Source of the DNA: Chloroflexota bacterium
Lineage (GTDB): Bacteria; Chloroflexota; Anaerolineae; Anaerolineales; DRMV01
Assembly (NCBI GenBank): GCA_011322445.1
Contig: DRMV01000028.1
Span: 1-35,083, forward strand
DNA length: 35,083 nt
Direction: 5' to 3'
Below the pieces are notes generated by a model. The model made no database searches. It was not told the origin of the DNA and saw only the letters and a program-made list of their open reading frames with translations. Within the stretch, counting starts at the first letter, position 1, and the number at the start of each line of letters is the position of its first letter. The translations under genes and the position numbers were made by a program. Below, piece after piece: positions 28,487 through 35,083 of the stretch.

Positions 28487-30049
28487 ATGGCGTTTCTTCA
28501 GAATCATTTGCTCTCGTGGATTTTGTTCACGCCTGCGCTGGCCGCAGTTGTGATCCTGTTCTTCCCCAAGGAAAAGGTGAATTTCCACCGCTGGTTTGCG
28601 TTTATTGCCAGTCTGGTGCCTTTGGCGCTTTCCATTTGGCTGTGGGTGGCGTTCAATCCCAATGCCGAGGGCTTCCAGTTTCAGGAGCAGGCGCAGTGGT
28701 TTACCGCCGTGCATTCCACTTATCACCTTGGGGTGGACGGCATTGCCCTGGTGATGGTGCTGTTGACCACGCTCCTGACCAGTGCGGCTTTGCTGGCTTC
28801 TTTCAGCATCAAAGAACGTGTGAAAACTTACATGGTGCTCTTCCTGCTGATGGAAACCGGCATGCTGGGCGTGTTCATGGCGCTGGACTTGGTGTTCTTC
28901 TATGTGTTCTGGGAAGTCAGCCTCATCCCGATGTTCTTCCTCATTAGCCAGTGGGGCAGCGAAAAAGGCGTGCGGGTGTGGGGCAAAGGGCGCGAAGTCA
29001 AGGAACGCGACTATGCGGCCTTCAAGTTCTTGCTCTACACCATGGCCGGTTCGTTGGGTTTGCTGGCAGCCATCTTCCTGTTGGGGATGGTGAGCGGTTC
29101 GTTTGACCTGCCTGTGGTGCTGGCGCACTGGAAGACGGTGAGCGGTACGCTGTGGGGCATTCCGGTGGCGACGATCAAGGCGATTGTGTTTTGGGCTTTT
29201 GTGATTGCCTTCGCCATCAAGGTGCCGGTGTGGCCGTTCCACACATGGTTGCCCGATGCCCACACGGCTGCGCCGACGCCCGGCTCGATGATTCTGGCCG
29301 GCGTGATGCTGAAACTGGGCGCGTTTGGCTTCTTGCGCTTCATTTTGCCGCTTTACCCTGAACAGGCCAAAATGTTTGCCGGGGCGCTGGCTTTCCTCGG
29401 GATGATGTCTATCGTGATGGGGGCATTTGCTTCCTTCGGGCAGACCGACTTCAAGCGCCTGGTGGCATATTCTTCGGTCAATCACATGGGCTTTGTGATT
29501 TTGGGCATCGCTGCGGCGGCTTATGCCGCTTCTACCGATCCGACTACGGCGGCGATTGCCCTGAACGGTGCTGTGTTGCAGATGTTCAACCACGGCCTTT
29601 CCGCAGCCGGGATGTTCTTCCTGGTGGGCGTGATTTACGAGCGGGCGCACACCCGCGACCTGCGGGAGTTTGGCGGGTTGTGGCCGTTGGTGCCGATTTA
29701 TGGCGGCATTTTGGTCTTCACCTCGATGGCTTCCCTCGGGCTGCCCGGGTTGAACGGCTTCGTTTCTGAGTTCCTGGTGGTGCGGGGCTCGTGGCCGGTC
29801 TTTACCCTCTACACTGCCTTGAGCATGTTGGGTTTGCTCTTCACTGGCGCTTACATCCTCAAGGGGCTGCGAGATGTGCTCCAGGGGCCGCTGAACACCA
29901 GGTGGGTCGGTCACTTGAGCGATATTTCGGTGCGGGAAATCGCGGTGATTGCGCCGCTGATGGTGCTGATGCTGTGGATTGGTGTCTGGCCGATGTGGAT
30001 TCTGAATGTAATCAACAAGGCGGCGGTTCATTTGCTGGCCTTGCTCTGA
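28487..30049 (+). CDS. nuoM: NADH-quinone oxidoreductase subunit M
   Basis: A 520-residue antiporter-like proton-pumping subunit. Visible signatures are DGIALVMVLLTT, FYVFWEVSLIPMFFLIS with the essential Glu, IKVPVWPFHTWLPDAHTAAP (split: IKVPVWPFHTW, LPDAHTAAP) with the conserved Lys and His, and YSSVNHMGFVILG. AAGGAGC lies ahead of the ATG. The order L-M-N is the usual one. Confidence 0.96.
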   Translation: MAFLQNHLLSWILFTPALAAVVILFFPKEKVNFHRWFAFIASLVPLALSIWLWVAFNPNAEGFQFQEQAQWFTAVHSTYHLGVDGIALVMVLLTTLLTSAALLASFSIKERVKTYMVLFLLMETGMLGVFMALDLVFFYVFWEVSLIPMFFLISQWGSEKGVRVWGKGREVKERDYAAFKFLLYTMAGSLGLLAAIFLLGMVSGSFDLPVVLAHWKTVSGTLWGIPVATIKAIVFWAFVIAFAIKVPVWPFHTWLPDAHTAAPTPGSMILAGVMLKLGAFGFLRFILPLYPEQAKMFAGALAFLGMMSIVMGAFASFGQTDFKRLVAYSSVNHMGFVILGIAAAAYAASTDPTTAAIALNGAVLQMFNHGLSAAGMFFLVGVIYERAHTRDLREFGGLWPLVPIYGGILVFTSMASLGLPGLNGFVSEFLVVRGSWPVFTLYTALSMLGLLFTGAYILKGLRDVLQGPLNTRWVGHLSDISVREIAVIAPLMVLMLWIGVWPMWILNVINKAAVHLLALL

Positions 30050-30087
30050 TGCTGGCGCGAGCCGACTTGTGTCTTGGAGGTGCCTAA

Positions 30088-31545
30088 GTGAGTGGCATTA
30101 ACTCTGCAATGATGTTGGCGATTCTGCCTGAGTTGCTGATCCTGCTGGTGGCCGCGGCGGTGCTGGTCGTGGACCTGGTGGAACGGGGAAAGCACCCTCG
30201 CCTGCTGGGCTGGATCACCGTCGCGGGGTTGGGCGTGGCCTTTGTCGCCAGCCTGCTTTATGGCCGCCCACCGCAGGACGGTGCGCTGGTGTGGGGCGGC
30301 ATGTTGCGCCACGACTGGCTGGCCTTTGTGTTCCAGATGGTGTTCATCGTGGGCGCTGCGGCAACGGCGCTTTTTGGCATGGACGTGGAAAACCTCGGCG
30401 AGCGGGGTGAGTTTTACATCCTGCTGCTGGCTTCGACGCTGGGCATGACCCTGATGGCCGCGGCTGCCGATTTAGTGATGCTTTACCTGGCGATTGAGAC
30501 CACTTCGATTCCCATGTATGTACTGGCGGGCTTCCTGCATGCCGACCGCAAATCCAACGAAGCAGGTTTCAAATACCTGCTCTTTGGCGCAATGGCCTCG
30601 GCGGTGATGCTCTACGGCTTTAGCCTGCTCTACGGCTTCACCGGGGAGACCCAGTTGGCCGCACTCCCGGCTGCCATTGCCCAAAGCGGGATGGGGCTGG
30701 GTGTGCTGTTGGGTATCATTGTCTTGATTTTGGTGGGCTTTGGCTTCAAGACCTCGGTTGTGCCGCTGCACTTCTGGGCCCCCGATGTCTACCAGGGCGC
30801 GCCCACGCCGGTGACCGGCTTCCTTTCCACCGCGTCGAAGGCGGCTGGTTTTGCGGTGCTGGTACGGGTGTTCCTGGTGGCTTTCCCCGGCCAGAGCATC
30901 CCTTATTGGGGCGCTTTGCTGGCGGCGATGTCGGTCGCTACCATGACCTTGGGGAACACCCTGGCGCTGGCCCAGAAAGATATCAAGCGCATGTTGGCTT
31001 ATTCGTCCATTGCCCACGCTGGCTATATTTTGGTGGGTGTGGTTGCGCTGAGTGAGTTGGGCCTCACGGGTGTGGTGTTTTACCTGGGCGTGTATTTGCT
31101 GAGCAACCTGACCGCCTTTGGCGTGGTGGCGATGGTCGAGAAGGCCGATGACTCCAATGAAATTGCCGATTACGCCGGGTTGGGTAAACGTGCCCCGTGG
31201 CTGGCGCTGGCGCTGATGATTGCGTTGCTCTCCCTTGCCGGTATGCCGCCGTTTGGCGGTTTTGTAGGGAAGGCATGGCTGTTCGGCGCCGCGGTGACGA
31301 CGAAGAAGGCGAACCTGGTGTGGCTGGCGGTCGTGGGTGTGCTCAACTCGGTCGTGGCAATGTACTACTACCTGGTGGTGCTCAAGGTGGCTTATTTCGA
31401 CCCGCCCAAGACCGAAGGCAAGATTGCAGTAAGCACCTCTTACACCGTTGGGTTGACGGTGCTGGCGGCGGCGGTGTTGCTGGTGGGCATCGCTTTCGCC
31501 CCGTGGTTTGCCTGGGCACAGCGGGCTGCCGCCGTGTTGTTCTGA
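30088..31545 (+). CDS. nuoN: NADH-quinone oxidoreductase subunit N
   Basis: A 485-residue antiporter-like subunit and the last gene of the nuo run. It has MLYLAIETTSIPMYVLAGF with the functional Glu, GFGFKTSVVPLHFWAPDVYQ with the conserved Lys, and YSSIAHAGYILVG. The GTG start at 30088 has TTGGAGG nine bases ahead; no better ATG is available. After its stop come inverted repeat copy 2 and the atp promoter. Confidence 0.95.
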   Translation: MSGINSAMMLAILPELLILLVAAAVLVVDLVERGKHPRLLGWITVAGLGVAFVASLLYGRPPQDGALVWGGMLRHDWLAFVFQMVFIVGAAATALFGMDVENLGERGEFYILLLASTLGMTLMAAAADLVMLYLAIETTSIPMYVLAGFLHADRKSNEAGFKYLLFGAMASAVMLYGFSLLYGFTGETQLAALPAAIAQSGMGLGVLLGIIVLILVGFGFKTSVVPLHFWAPDVYQGAPTPVTGFLSTASKAAGFAVLVRVFLVAFPGQSIPYWGALLAAMSVATMTLGNTLALAQKDIKRMLAYSSIAHAGYILVGVVALSELGLTGVVFYLGVYLLSNLTAFGVVAMVEKADDSNEIADYAGLGKRAPWLALALMIALLSLAGMPPFGGFVGKAWLFGAAVTTKKANLVWLAVVGVLNSVVAMYYYLVVLKVAYFDPPKTEGKIAVSTSYTVGLTVLAAAVLLVGIAFAPWFAWAQRAAAVLF

Positions 31546-31744: not shown

Positions 31745-32026
31745 ATGGATGAGTTCCAACGGCAGAAACTTGCCCGTCAGAAGGTGTTCAACCTCACCCT
31801 GGCCTCAGTGATGGCCCAGGTGGGGCTTTTGACGGTGGTCGTCTTGGGGGTGGCGCTGTGGGTCGGGCTGACCCTCGATGCCCATTACGGCACCCGCCCG
31901 CTGTGGACGATTGTGTTGGTGGTGCTGAGCGTGCCGCTCACCATCGGTGGGATGCTGTGGGTGGTGCGCCGGGCCAGCCACCGTCTGGAAGACGAGTCGC
32001 CTTCAGAGGGTGAGAAACAGCAGTAG
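31745..32026 (+). CDS. AtpZ/AtpI-family protein of the ATP synthase operon
   Basis: A 93-residue protein with two hydrophobic segments (MAQVGLLTVVVLGVALWVGL and LWTIVLVVLSVPLTIGGMLW) joined by the LDAHYGTRP turn, the usual layout of AtpZ/AtpI proteins at the head of atp operons. They assist c-ring assembly or ion supply. The charged tail (RRASHRLEDESPSEGEKQQ) is cytoplasmic. The start follows directly after the promoter. Assignment to AtpZ rather than AtpI is uncertain; position and size are the main support. Confidence 0.82.
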   Translation: MDEFQRQKLARQKVFNLTLASVMAQVGLLTVVVLGVALWVGLTLDAHYGTRPLWTIVLVVLSVPLTIGGMLWVVRRASHRLEDESPSEGEKQQ

Positions 32027-32076
32027 TTACGCCGCGCAGGCCCCGGGCCGCGCGAGTTATCTTGGAGGAAGAATTC

Positions 32077-33063
32077 ATGGCTGACCCCAAGAAGGACCCT
32101 GGGACCAAGAAAAAAGGCAACTTGCGCAAGGAATTTGGCATCCTTATGCTCATTACGGGGGTTTTGGGTGGTATCGGCTGGTACTTTTTCCCGCCGGTCA
32201 TGCCCCATGTGCAACTCCCTGCTGAGCCGGTAATGTCGCATCCGCTGTTTACCCTGCCGGTGCTGGGCGAGGTTTACCTGACCAACACCCTGGTTGCGAT
32301 GATTTTGATGGACCTGGTGGTGTTGGCGTTGGTGTATATCGTCCAAAAGGCGGCAAAGAGCGGCGATTTGGTGCCGCGTGGCCTGAGCGGCGCTTTCGAA
32401 GCCTTGCTGGAAGCCATGTATAACCTGACCGAGAGCACCGCGGGCAAGTGGACGGCGGATATCTTCCCCTATTTTGCGACCTTCTTTATCCTGGTGTTGA
32501 TTGCCAATTACATGGAACTTTTGCCGGGGGTAGATAGCATTGGCTGGCTGGCCCATGCCGAGCATACCGGCCACGCGGCGAAAGGCATTTTCCTGTTGAA
32601 GGATGCCGGGGAATATACCGTGGTGCCGTGGGTGCGGGTGCTTTCCACCGACTTGAACTTCACTGCCGCGCTGGCGCTGGTTTCGGTGTTCATGACGCAA
32701 GTCATTGGCGTCAAGGCGCTGGGGCTGCCTTACTTTGGCAAGTTCTTCAACATCAAAGCACTCTTCACCGTCAAGCCGCGCTGGATGGGCGTAATTGATT
32801 TCTTCGTGAGCATTCTGGAAATCGTTTCCGAGGTTGCCAAAATTGTCTCGTTCTCTTTCCGGTTGTTCGGTAACCTCTTTGCCGGTTCGGTGATGCTCTT
32901 CGTGATTGGCTTCCTGGTGCCTATCTGGTTCCAGAGTGCGGTGCTGCTGCTGGAATCTTTCGTGGGTGTCATTCAGGCGTTGGTGTTTGGTATGCTGACC
33001 CTGATGTTCATGTCGCTGGCGACCCACCCGCACGGCGGCGAACACGAGGAAGCCCACGCCTGA
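32077..33063 (+). CDS. atpB: F0F1 ATP synthase subunit a
   Basis: A 328-residue membrane subunit that forms the two proton half-channels beside the c-ring. The essential Arg lies in SFSFRLFGNLFAGSVML near residue 270, and NYMELLPGVDS marks an earlier conserved helix. It is longer than E. coli subunit a (271), mainly through a lysine-rich N-terminus (MADPKKDPGTKKKGNLRK) before the first helix. ATG 32077 is chosen because GGAGGAAG lies ahead of it; the TTG at 32062 falls inside that site. The C-terminus is His-rich. A hairpin lies between it and atpE. Confidence 0.94.
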   Translation: MADPKKDPGTKKKGNLRKEFGILMLITGVLGGIGWYFFPPVMPHVQLPAEPVMSHPLFTLPVLGEVYLTNTLVAMILMDLVVLALVYIVQKAAKSGDLVPRGLSGAFEALLEAMYNLTESTAGKWTADIFPYFATFFILVLIANYMELLPGVDSIGWLAHAEHTGHAAKGIFLLKDAGEYTVVPWVRVLSTDLNFTAALALVSVFMTQVIGVKALGLPYFGKFFNIKALFTVKPRWMGVIDFFVSILEIVSEVAKIVSFSFRLFGNLFAGSVMLFVIGFLVPIWFQSAVLLLESFVGVIQALVFGMLTLMFMSLATHPHGGEHEEAHA

Positions 33064-33370: not shown

Positions 33371-33406
33371 CGCTGATTCCAGCCCCCATTGGGAAGGAGG
33401 CTCGCC

Positions 33407-34159
33407 TTGGAACTCTTAGGGAAACTGGGCATTTCGCTGGGCTATTTGATCGTCCAGATTCTGAACTTTATCATCATGTTCTGGGTGCTCAAGAAATTCG
33501 CCTATCCGGCGATCTTGGGCATGTTGGAGAAGCGGCGCGAGATTATCGCCAAAGGGCTGGAAGACGCCCGCGTGGCGGCTGAAGCGCGGGCCAACGCCGA
33601 GAAGGAAGCCGAGAAGATCCTGGCCGAAGCGCGTGCCAAGGCCAGCCAGATTGTGCGGGAAGCCAGCGAGCGCGCTGAGGCTGTGGGGCGTGAAATCAAA
33701 GCCGCGGCGGAAGCCGAGGCCGCCAAGGTGCGCGAAGAGGCGCTGGAAACCGCCCAGGCCGAGCGCGAGCGCATTCTGCGGGAACTGCGCGGCCAGGTGG
33801 CGATGCTGGCCATTGCCGCGGCGCAAAAACTCATCGGCGCCGCACTGGACGAGCAGCGCCAGCGCCAGTTGCTTGATGAATTCTTCTCGGGCATCAAGGG
33901 CGGCAAAGTTACCGTGCTGGACGACCTGGGCACGGTGGAAGAAGCGCCTGCTGCTGAAGTGATCAGCGCCTTGCCCCTGACCGAAGAAGAACAGGAAACC
34001 ATCAAGCAGGCTATCCTCGCCAAAGTTGAGAAAGTTGGTGAAATCACCTTCAAAGTCGATCCGTCCATCATGGGCGGCGTGGTCATCCGCATTGGCGATA
34101 AAGTGTTGGATGGTTCGGTGAGTGGCCAGTTGCAGGAACTGCGCGAAAGCCTGGCGTAA
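33407..34159 (+). CDS. atpF-atpH: ATP synthase subunit b fused to the delta C-terminal domain
   Basis: A 250-residue fusion. Residues 1-30 are the membrane helix of subunit b (GYLIVQILNFIIMFWVLKKF); about 35-150 is the long charged coiled coil of the stator stalk. The last 65 residues match the C-terminal part of delta/OSCP: ALPLTEEEQETIKQAIL, ITFKVDPSIMGGVVIRIGDK (split: ITFKVDPSIM, GGVVIRIGDK) and VLDGSVSGQLQELRESL. The helical N-terminal domain of delta that grips subunit alpha is not present in full. TTG 33407 is chosen because GGAAGGAGG ends six bases ahead; the TTG at 33389 overlaps that site. No atpA follows. Confidence 0.88.
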   Translation: MELLGKLGISLGYLIVQILNFIIMFWVLKKFAYPAILGMLEKRREIIAKGLEDARVAAEARANAEKEAEKILAEARAKASQIVREASERAEAVGREIKAAAEAEAAKVREEALETAQAERERILRELRGQVAMLAIAAAQKLIGAALDEQRQRQLLDEFFSGIKGGKVTVLDDLGTVEEAPAAEVISALPLTEEEQETIKQAILAKVEKVGEITFKVDPSIMGGVVIRIGDKVLDGSVSGQLQELRESLA

Positions 34160-34191: not shown

Positions 34192-34232
34192 AGGCCTCCG
34201 AGGGCTTTGAGACTTCGGAGGCCTTTGCTTTA
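34192..34232 (+). terminator. Terminator of the atp F0 operon
   Basis: AGGCCTCCGA (34192-34201) pairs perfectly with TCGGAGGCCT (34215-34224), followed by TTGCTTTAT. It may also serve the convergent repeat-protein gene. Confidence 0.75.
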
Positions 34233-34293: not shown

Positions 34294-35083
34294 TTACGGC
34301 CACCAGCGGCCCACATCCTGAATGGCGCGGAAGGTTTCGCTCACCGCCTCCTGCCCGCCTAAGGCGTGGATGACGGGAGCCAGTGCCCGCAGGTCGGCGA
34401 GCAGGTCGCTGCGGGTGCGGCGGGCGAGGATGGGCAGGGTCTCGGCCCAAAGGGGATAGAGGCGCTCCGGCGGCATCTCGGTCAACCGCGGGGCCAGTCC
34501 CGAAAGGGCATCGGCGCGCTCATTTTCATCCCAAATGCTCCGGGCCGCCGCAAGAGCCTCGGTCAGGGCCTGCTCCCGCAATTCCGGCGGCAGGTGGGGC
34601 GCCAGGGCCGCAAGGGCCTCGGCGCGGGCATCTTCATCCCGGATGCTCAGGGCCTCGGCCAGGGCCTGCTCCAGCAAGTCGGGCGGCAGGTGGGGGGCCA
34701 AGGCCGCAAGGGCACGGGCGCGAGCATCTTCATCCCGGATGCTCCGGGCCGCCGCCAGGGCCTCGCTCAGAGCCTGCTCCCGCAAGTCCGGTGGCAGGTG
34801 GGGCGCCAGGGCCGCAAGGGCCTCGGCGCGAGGACTTCTAAGGCCAAGAGCGTCCTTCTCTGGAAGGCTCCGGGCCGCCGCCAGGGCCTTGGTCAGCAAC
34901 TCCACCGGCAGGTGGGGCACCAGGGCCGCAAGTGCACGGGCGCGGGCATATTCATCCCGGATGCTCCGGGCCGCCGCCAGGGCCTCGCTCAGAGCCTGCT
35001 CCCGCAAGTCCGGTGGCAGGTGGGGGGCCAGGGCCGCAAGGGCCTCGGCGCGAGGACTTCTAAGGCCAAGAGCGTCCTTCTCC
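34294..35083 (-). CDS. Alpha-solenoid repeat protein, C-terminal part (5' end beyond window)
   Basis: The frame is open from the right edge to the stop at 34296-34294, giving at least 262 residues; no start is in the window, since TTG 35007 lies inside a repeat. The protein is built of units of about 37 residues with the theme RAEALAALAPHLPPDLREQA and LSEALAAARSIRDED, Ala/Leu-rich paired helices like HEAT or TPR solenoids. It ends with a non-repeat cap, GGQEAVSETFRAIQDVGRWWP. The missing N-terminus decides its role. Proteins with such repeats in Chloroflexota and cyanobacteria can carry protease, NACHT or CHAT domains; that is only a hint here. Confidence 0.82.
   Translation of the reverse strand, partial: EKDALGLRSPRAEALAALAPHLPPDLREQALSEALAAARSIRDEYARARALAALVPHLPVELLTKALAAARSLPEKDALGLRSPRAEALAALAPHLPPDLREQALSEALAAARSIRDEDARARALAALAPHLPPDLLEQALAEALSIRDEDARAEALAALAPHLPPELREQALTEALAAARSIWDENERADALSGLAPRLTEMPPERLYPLWAETLPILARRTRSDLLADLRALAPVIHALGGQEAVSETFRAIQDVGRWWP
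34731..35083 (-). repeat. 222-base tandem duplication within the solenoid gene
   Basis: The stretch 34731-34860 returns almost unchanged at 34953-35082, an offset of 222 bases or 74 codons, which is two 37-residue units. Only isolated differences are visible (for example position 34805 compared with 35027), so the duplication is recent or homogenised. The second copy is cut by the window edge. Confidence 0.85.

Follow-up and report, generated by a model that had tools for sequence, protein, structure and literature searches.

A predicted ATP synthase stalk subunit in Anaerolineales joins complete subunit b to the C-terminal domain of delta

Introduction

In known ATP synthases, the six-helix N-terminal domain (NTD) of subunit delta (OSCP) caps the alpha3beta3 crown and binds the alpha N-termini, and it is generally regarded as an essential stator anchor for F1. 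A 35,083-nucleotide contig from a Chloroflexota bacterium of the order Anaerolineales (hereafter the window) carries a gene in which subunit b continues into a part of delta that ends the protein, and this raises the question of how F1 is held where the cap is missing. We found no account of a b-delta fusion in Chloroflexota or Anaerolineae in the open-access papers searched.

Results

Complete subunit b is followed by the C-terminal domain of delta

Both parts of the fusion protein are recognized by sequence profiles. ATP-synt_B (PF00430) exceeds the Pfam cut-off (E 5e-25) and TIGR01144 scores 109 bits against a cut-off of 65.5, which, together with an N-terminal membrane helix and the a-c-b gene order, identifies an F-type subunit b. 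The OSCP/delta profile also exceeds its Pfam cut-off (E 4e-20), covering only positions 104-172 of 172. These matches bear out a sequence-only reading of this DNA, which had described a normal b joined to the end of delta alone. That reading also held that the delta NTD was missing or that the final part of the coiled coil had taken its place; the loss stands, while the replacement does not. Residues 8-163 of the fusion protein correspond to residues 5-160 of the 168 of PS3 b, so homology extends to the natural end of b and no part of b is replaced; a linker then follows.

The predicted fold agrees with this division. An AlphaFold2 model computed from a 29-row alignment of fused relatives (mean pLDDT 88) consists of a single helix (residues 11-143), a further helix (149-161), the linker and an alpha/beta delta-CTD fold (177-249). 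The sequence-only reading would have fallen had a six-helix delta domain appeared at residues 110-185, and the model contains no such bundle there. Residues 179-249 superpose on residues 104-174 of E. coli delta (Z 10.6, 1.7 Å rmsd, 38% identity), which, with the OSCP match, identifies the C-terminal alpha/beta domain (CTD) of delta. In the 29 relatives, the conserved F160 and V185 are separated by 15-27 residues. Judged from sequence and model, subunit b is complete, a linker connects its end to the delta CTD, and the delta NTD has been lost.

Table 1. Features of the Fo gene cluster, in window coordinates
Feature	Position	Strand	Basis and remarks
AtpI/AtpZ-like small membrane protein (ATPase_gene1)	31745..32026	+	PF09527, barely above cut-off
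Subunit a (atpB)	32062..33063	+	ATP-synt_A
Subunit c (atpE), 77 aa	33137..33370	+	ATP-synt_C
Ribosome-binding site AAGGAGG	33394..33400	+	Sequence; 6 nt upstream of TTG
b-deltaCTD fusion gene, 250 aa	33407..34159	+	TTG start at 33407, stop 34157-34159 (ORF list, sequence); Pfam, TIGRFAM, sequence alignment, model
Complete subunit b, residues 1-163	33407..33895	+	Membrane helix, coiled coil, C-terminal helices
b-to-delta-CTD linker, about residues 164-178	33896..33940	+	AlphaFold2 model, relatives' alignment
Delta/OSCP C-terminal domain, residues 179-250	33941..34156	+	OSCP profile, structural superposition
Hairpin, 12 pairs	34192..34224	+	33 nt past fusion-gene stop; fold z-score -2.7

The Fo genes stand apart from the F1 genes

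Of the ATP synthase genes, the window holds only those of Fo, in the order I-a-c-(b-deltaC), and its reading frames include no F1 gene downstream of the fusion gene; the F1 genes lie on a different contig. The closest solved relative of subunit a is that of Chloroflexus aurantiacus (9itj_T, 140 bits; next match 68). Subunit c lacks the Q in helix 1 and has A-V after its ion-binding E; compared with the generally known set of Na+ ligands, this sequence is of the H+ type. The hairpin past the fusion gene probably marks the end of the operon, and was not listed by a consensus terminator scan because its loop is 9 nt long. Directly upstream of the Fo genes, nuoM-like and nuoN-like complex I genes (28487-31545) have the same orientation, and expression of the respiratory and Fo genes may therefore be linked. 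On the opposite strand, an open-ended reading frame (34294-35083) with HEAT-like repeats of about 30 residues (ALAALAPHLPPDLREQALSEALAAARSIRDED) runs off the contig end.

The genome encodes a single b and no separate delta

The sequence-only reading had called for a search for a separate atpH or a second atpF, and a complete atpH elsewhere in the genome would have refuted it. The genome (a 2.63 Mb draft in 53 contigs, 96% complete) has one OSCP match and one ATP-synt_B match above cut-off, both being the fusion gene, so the latter search yields no second b or b' gene. Alpha, gamma and beta occur once each, in the order alpha-gamma-beta-epsilon (L013:6392-11031, contig C18); these F1 genes are directly consecutive and have no delta gene among them. 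A third gene above the ATP-synt_ab cut-off (L014) reads, from its sequence, as Rho. A profile of the NTD alone, derived from 19 full-length Anaerolineae deltas, found all 4 of 4 full-delta control genomes (E 1e-30 to 1e-37), no match in this genome, and nothing above noise in 19 other fused genomes and 8 genomes with the mini-deltas described below (best E 0.006). With no match by PF00213 beyond the fusion gene or by the NTD profile, we rejected a separate atpH or delta NTD elsewhere in the genome; the domain is absent from the fusion gene, from its model and from the genome. Each fused genome has one b gene, with the single exception of G070, which has two. A single b gene implies that b pairs with itself, and a b2 dimer would then bear two delta CTDs.

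Fused and free-standing delta CTDs are widespread in Anaerolineae

An OSCP match occurs in 143 of the 150 Anaerolineae genomes compared; roughly half of these matches span the whole profile and the others essentially only its end. Comparison of 60 loci of the class distinguished three layouts: N-ATPase operons with the order beta-epsilon-a-c-(b-deltaC)-alpha-gamma; complete F-type operons in which a separate, CTD-only mini-delta lies between b and alpha, found in families other than that of the window; and split operons of the window type, I-a-c-(b-deltaC). The mini-deltas are 84-123 aa long, plus one of 167 aa, and their genes share 1-4 bases with the end of b, which leaves no place upstream for a concealed NTD. 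The smallest of them (84 aa) and its b (164 aa) together equal the length of the fusion.

Among named genomes at least 584 relatives were found. All of the best 80, which were inspected, carry b and the delta CTD in one reading frame of 235-268 aa; 70 have the full I-a-c-bdeltaC order, and the flanks examined contain no F1 gene. The fused loci include those of the isolates Longilinea arvoryzae KOME-1 and Levilinea saccharolytica KIBI-1, and in two relatives assembled as single contigs (G009 and G026) the only OSCP match is the fused gene. The comparison with other Anaerolineae that the sequence-only reading had recommended thus shows the delta CTD-b fusion to be a trait of a whole clade, beside which free-standing delta-CTD genes occur. 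In other classes of Chloroflexota, a full delta is the rule.

Some loci depart from these layouts. The 167-aa delta (L057:5266-5769) has, before its CTD, about 90 residues that do not match the OSCP NTD and are possibly a strongly diverged or replaced NTD. Within family f35, three genomes (G065, at L084; G111; G146) carry two operons each, an F-type one with a CTD-only mini-delta and an N-ATPase one with b-deltaC; in G065 the two are about 3 kb apart. In another member, G034 (99% complete), neither an OSCP nor an alpha match was found, and this genome is apparently without any F-type ATP synthase.

Relation to known stator proteins

The long subunit b of N-ATPases, reportedly treated by Dibrova et al. 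in 2010, is the closest precedent, rather than the mycobacterial fusion. Its family (TIGR03321, alt_F1F0_F0_B) resembles the window protein in having a delta-CTD-like end on b and no separate delta; the longer b of these delta-less enzymes has been likened to A-type subunit E (PMC5706428; PMC4154653). However, N-ATPases form their own clade, have beta-epsilon-...-a-c-b-alpha-gamma operons rather than I-a-c-b, and usually occur as a second enzyme beside a normal one, whereas the window's enzyme is the only one and of the H+ type. Mycobacterial b-delta (PRK13428/NF009961; PDB 7jg5_d) likewise has b and delta in one chain, and 7jg5_d is among the best structural matches of the fusion protein. As the sequence-only reading had stated, delta is complete in that protein, which is 445 aa long with two matched stretches and is paired with a separate b' (170 aa); the window protein has only the CTD behind b, and its genome only one b gene.

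Loss of the NTD with retention of the CTD is shared with the engineered deltaDN-alpha of PS3 (PDB 9jc1) and with a natural deltaDN-alpha of Acidaminococcus, though in these the CTD is joined to alpha and in the window to b. The fusion-protein CTD superposes on that of 9jc1 at 1.5 Å with 46% identity. The ATP synthase of Chloroflexus aurantiacus (PDB 9itj-9itu), from the same phylum and with the closest subunit a, has a shortened delta (157 aa), but its delta and b are separate chains, part of the NTD is kept, and each entry contains two a and four b chains. A long coiled coil and a delta-CTD-like end on one chain are also found in FliH2 and in V- and A-type subunit E, and two CTDs per b2 would be a FliH2-like arrangement. 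These proteins belong to other complexes, and the likeness to subunit E is weak in sequence (E about 0.003) and in structure (V-type, Z 6.8 over residues 67-250; Foldseek probability 0.57, Thermus V/A-ATPase chain), where part of it comes from long helices. Dictyoglomus has been reported to lack delta (PMC4154653).

The docking helix of alpha is retained

The N-terminal amphipathic helix of alpha is kept in full-delta, mini-delta and fused genomes alike. At positions 8, 12, 16 and 19, at least 92% of rows in each group have hydrophobic residues, as do all fused genomes compared; identity within the helix falls from 0.48 in full-delta genomes to 0.34 in fused ones. N-ATPase alphas diverge in this helix. 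In the alpha of the present genome (L013:6392-8059), LERAAR and GGSLTALP are also separated by an inserted loop of about 50 residues. This insertion, with recurring letters VDGKVYxGPL..., is common to 20 of 28 fused genomes; clade f20/f22/f47 lacks it, and two genomes of family f17 with a full delta (L025, L036) have it. With 8 of the 28 fused genomes lacking it and two full-delta genomes having it, we rejected the insertion as a general replacement of the NTD.

Discussion

How F1 may be held without the cap

We put at roughly three in four the chance that the fusion protein is a peripheral-stalk subunit of the cell's only rotary, H+-type F1Fo, and that its tethered delta CTD holds F1 in a cap-less enzyme. 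Every stalk would be a b homodimer bearing two delta CTDs, at least one of which would dock in the canonical way against the C-terminal helices of b and one alpha N-terminal helix. With the cap contact gone, F1 would be retained by the covalently tethered CTD, much as with FliH2 or V/A-type subunit E. The sequence-only reading had inferred that the stator must hold F1 differently; since the delta CTD fold and the alpha docking helix are both kept, F1 may instead be attached in the canonical way with only the cap missing. In PS3 FoF1, one alpha N-terminus contacts the delta C-terminal region and the other two the NTD, and an isolated delta CTD joined to alpha still binds b2 canonically (PMC12229609). 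On the other hand, the CTD was joined to alpha in that work out of concern that its own binding to alpha3beta3 was too weak (PMC12229609); in the window protein it is fused to b and not to alpha, so the alpha contact must be non-covalent, which counts against this explanation, as does the lower identity of the alpha helix in fused genomes.

In canonical enzymes, the NTD provides most of the affinity for F1, and an unrelated cap protein from another locus of the genome might have taken over from the lost NTD; the retention of the alpha helix would also fit this. We regard this as improbable: the I-a-c-b operons of the named loci contain no extra recognized ATP synthase gene, the F1 genes of this genome are directly consecutive, and minimal a-c-b-miniDelta-alpha-gamma-beta-epsilon operons have no space for another gene. 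That the fusion gene is itself part of an N-ATPase, a laterally moved Na+ pump with a long b, is very unlikely. TIGR03321 does align over its whole length, to residues 20-254 (256-aa numbering), but at 89.4 bits against a cut-off of 224.7; the order is I-a-c-b, with F1 genes on contig C18, and not beta-epsilon-I-R-a-c-b-alpha-gamma; N-ATPases form a separate clade without window rows in the alpha and Fo trees (99-100*); subunit c lacks Na+ ligands; and this is the sole ATP synthase of the genome. We rejected membership on operon order, clade, c ligands and profile cut-off. The draft state of the assembly (53 contigs, 96% complete) could be thought to conceal a normal atpH through an assembly or annotation artefact, an explanation that is barely credible given the same fused reading frame in 80 of 80 independent loci (the best of at least 584), isolates included, and the fused gene as the only OSCP match of single-contig G009 and G026.

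A further possibility, which we consider less likely than not, is that one F1, having no NTD on its three-fold axis, binds two or three b2 stalks with a separate a for each. Through the delta CTD-b fusion, a stalk and its a could attach to any one of the three alphas. The H+/ATP ratio would rise, allowing ATP to be made at low proton-motive force and suiting the cell to life under such conditions. The Chloroflexus structures reportedly show two stalks held by a delta dimer; their 18 PDB entries contain 36 a and 72 b chains, whereas the a chains of other organisms number one per entry, and the window a is closest to that of Chloroflexus aurantiacus. According to Kobayashi et al. 2025, the delta NTD limits PS3 FoF1 to one stalk; PS3 enzymes without it, with the CTD fused to alpha, have one to three stalks and an H+/ATP ratio of 5.8 versus 3.0, and a natural deltaDN-alpha gene is named in Acidaminococcus (PMC12229609). 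The window enzyme thus lacks the known one-stalk limiter and has, in Chloroflexus, an apparently two-stalk cousin; conceivably, the main ATP synthase of Anaerolineales is naturally multi-stalk, repeated loss of the NTD having lifted the limit. The absence of a complete NTD on the three-fold axis is, however, permissive and not sufficient. Chloroflexus delta retains part of the NTD and represents a different solution, the two CTDs of one b2 dimer could occupy two alpha sites and block further stalks, and N-ATPases share the b layout and are not known as multi-stalk.

Whatever the stalk number, the delta NTD is missing from the only ATP synthase of an entire clade that includes cultured members, and in neighbouring families delta has been reduced to a free-standing CTD of 84-121 residues. 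These organisms offer natural cases in which to test the role of the delta cap, the minimum of contacts that will hold F1, and whether evolution has tuned stalk number and hence the H+/ATP ratio, a question raised by the PS3 engineering.

Evolutionary history of the fusion

Quick trees of alpha and of concatenated a+b+c, which include some contaminated bins (G046, G032), agree in their main points, and both separate N-ATPase rows from all F-type rows (99-100*). In the a+b+c tree, the window falls within a clade of 27 fused rows (98*), with a second fused pair (families f43 and f13) outside it; by its starred branches, the fusion must have arisen twice and the mini-delta four times. In the Fo tree made without N-ATPases, the distribution of the NTD requires five changes, of which four are forced. 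These sequence trees therefore give good support to repeated loss of the delta NTD, at least four times. A repeated origin of the fusion is likely and no more: in both trees, starred branches favour two origins, but an AU test does not reject a single origin (p 0.106), and we do not claim two.

Family f51, which belongs to the same order as the window, has alphas that fall in the N-ATPase clade, two in G293 and one in G300 (L223, L225, L226); a second alpha of G300 forms a long, uncertain branch. Since no F-type alpha was found in G293, the normal ATP synthase may have given way to N-type enzymes in that genome.
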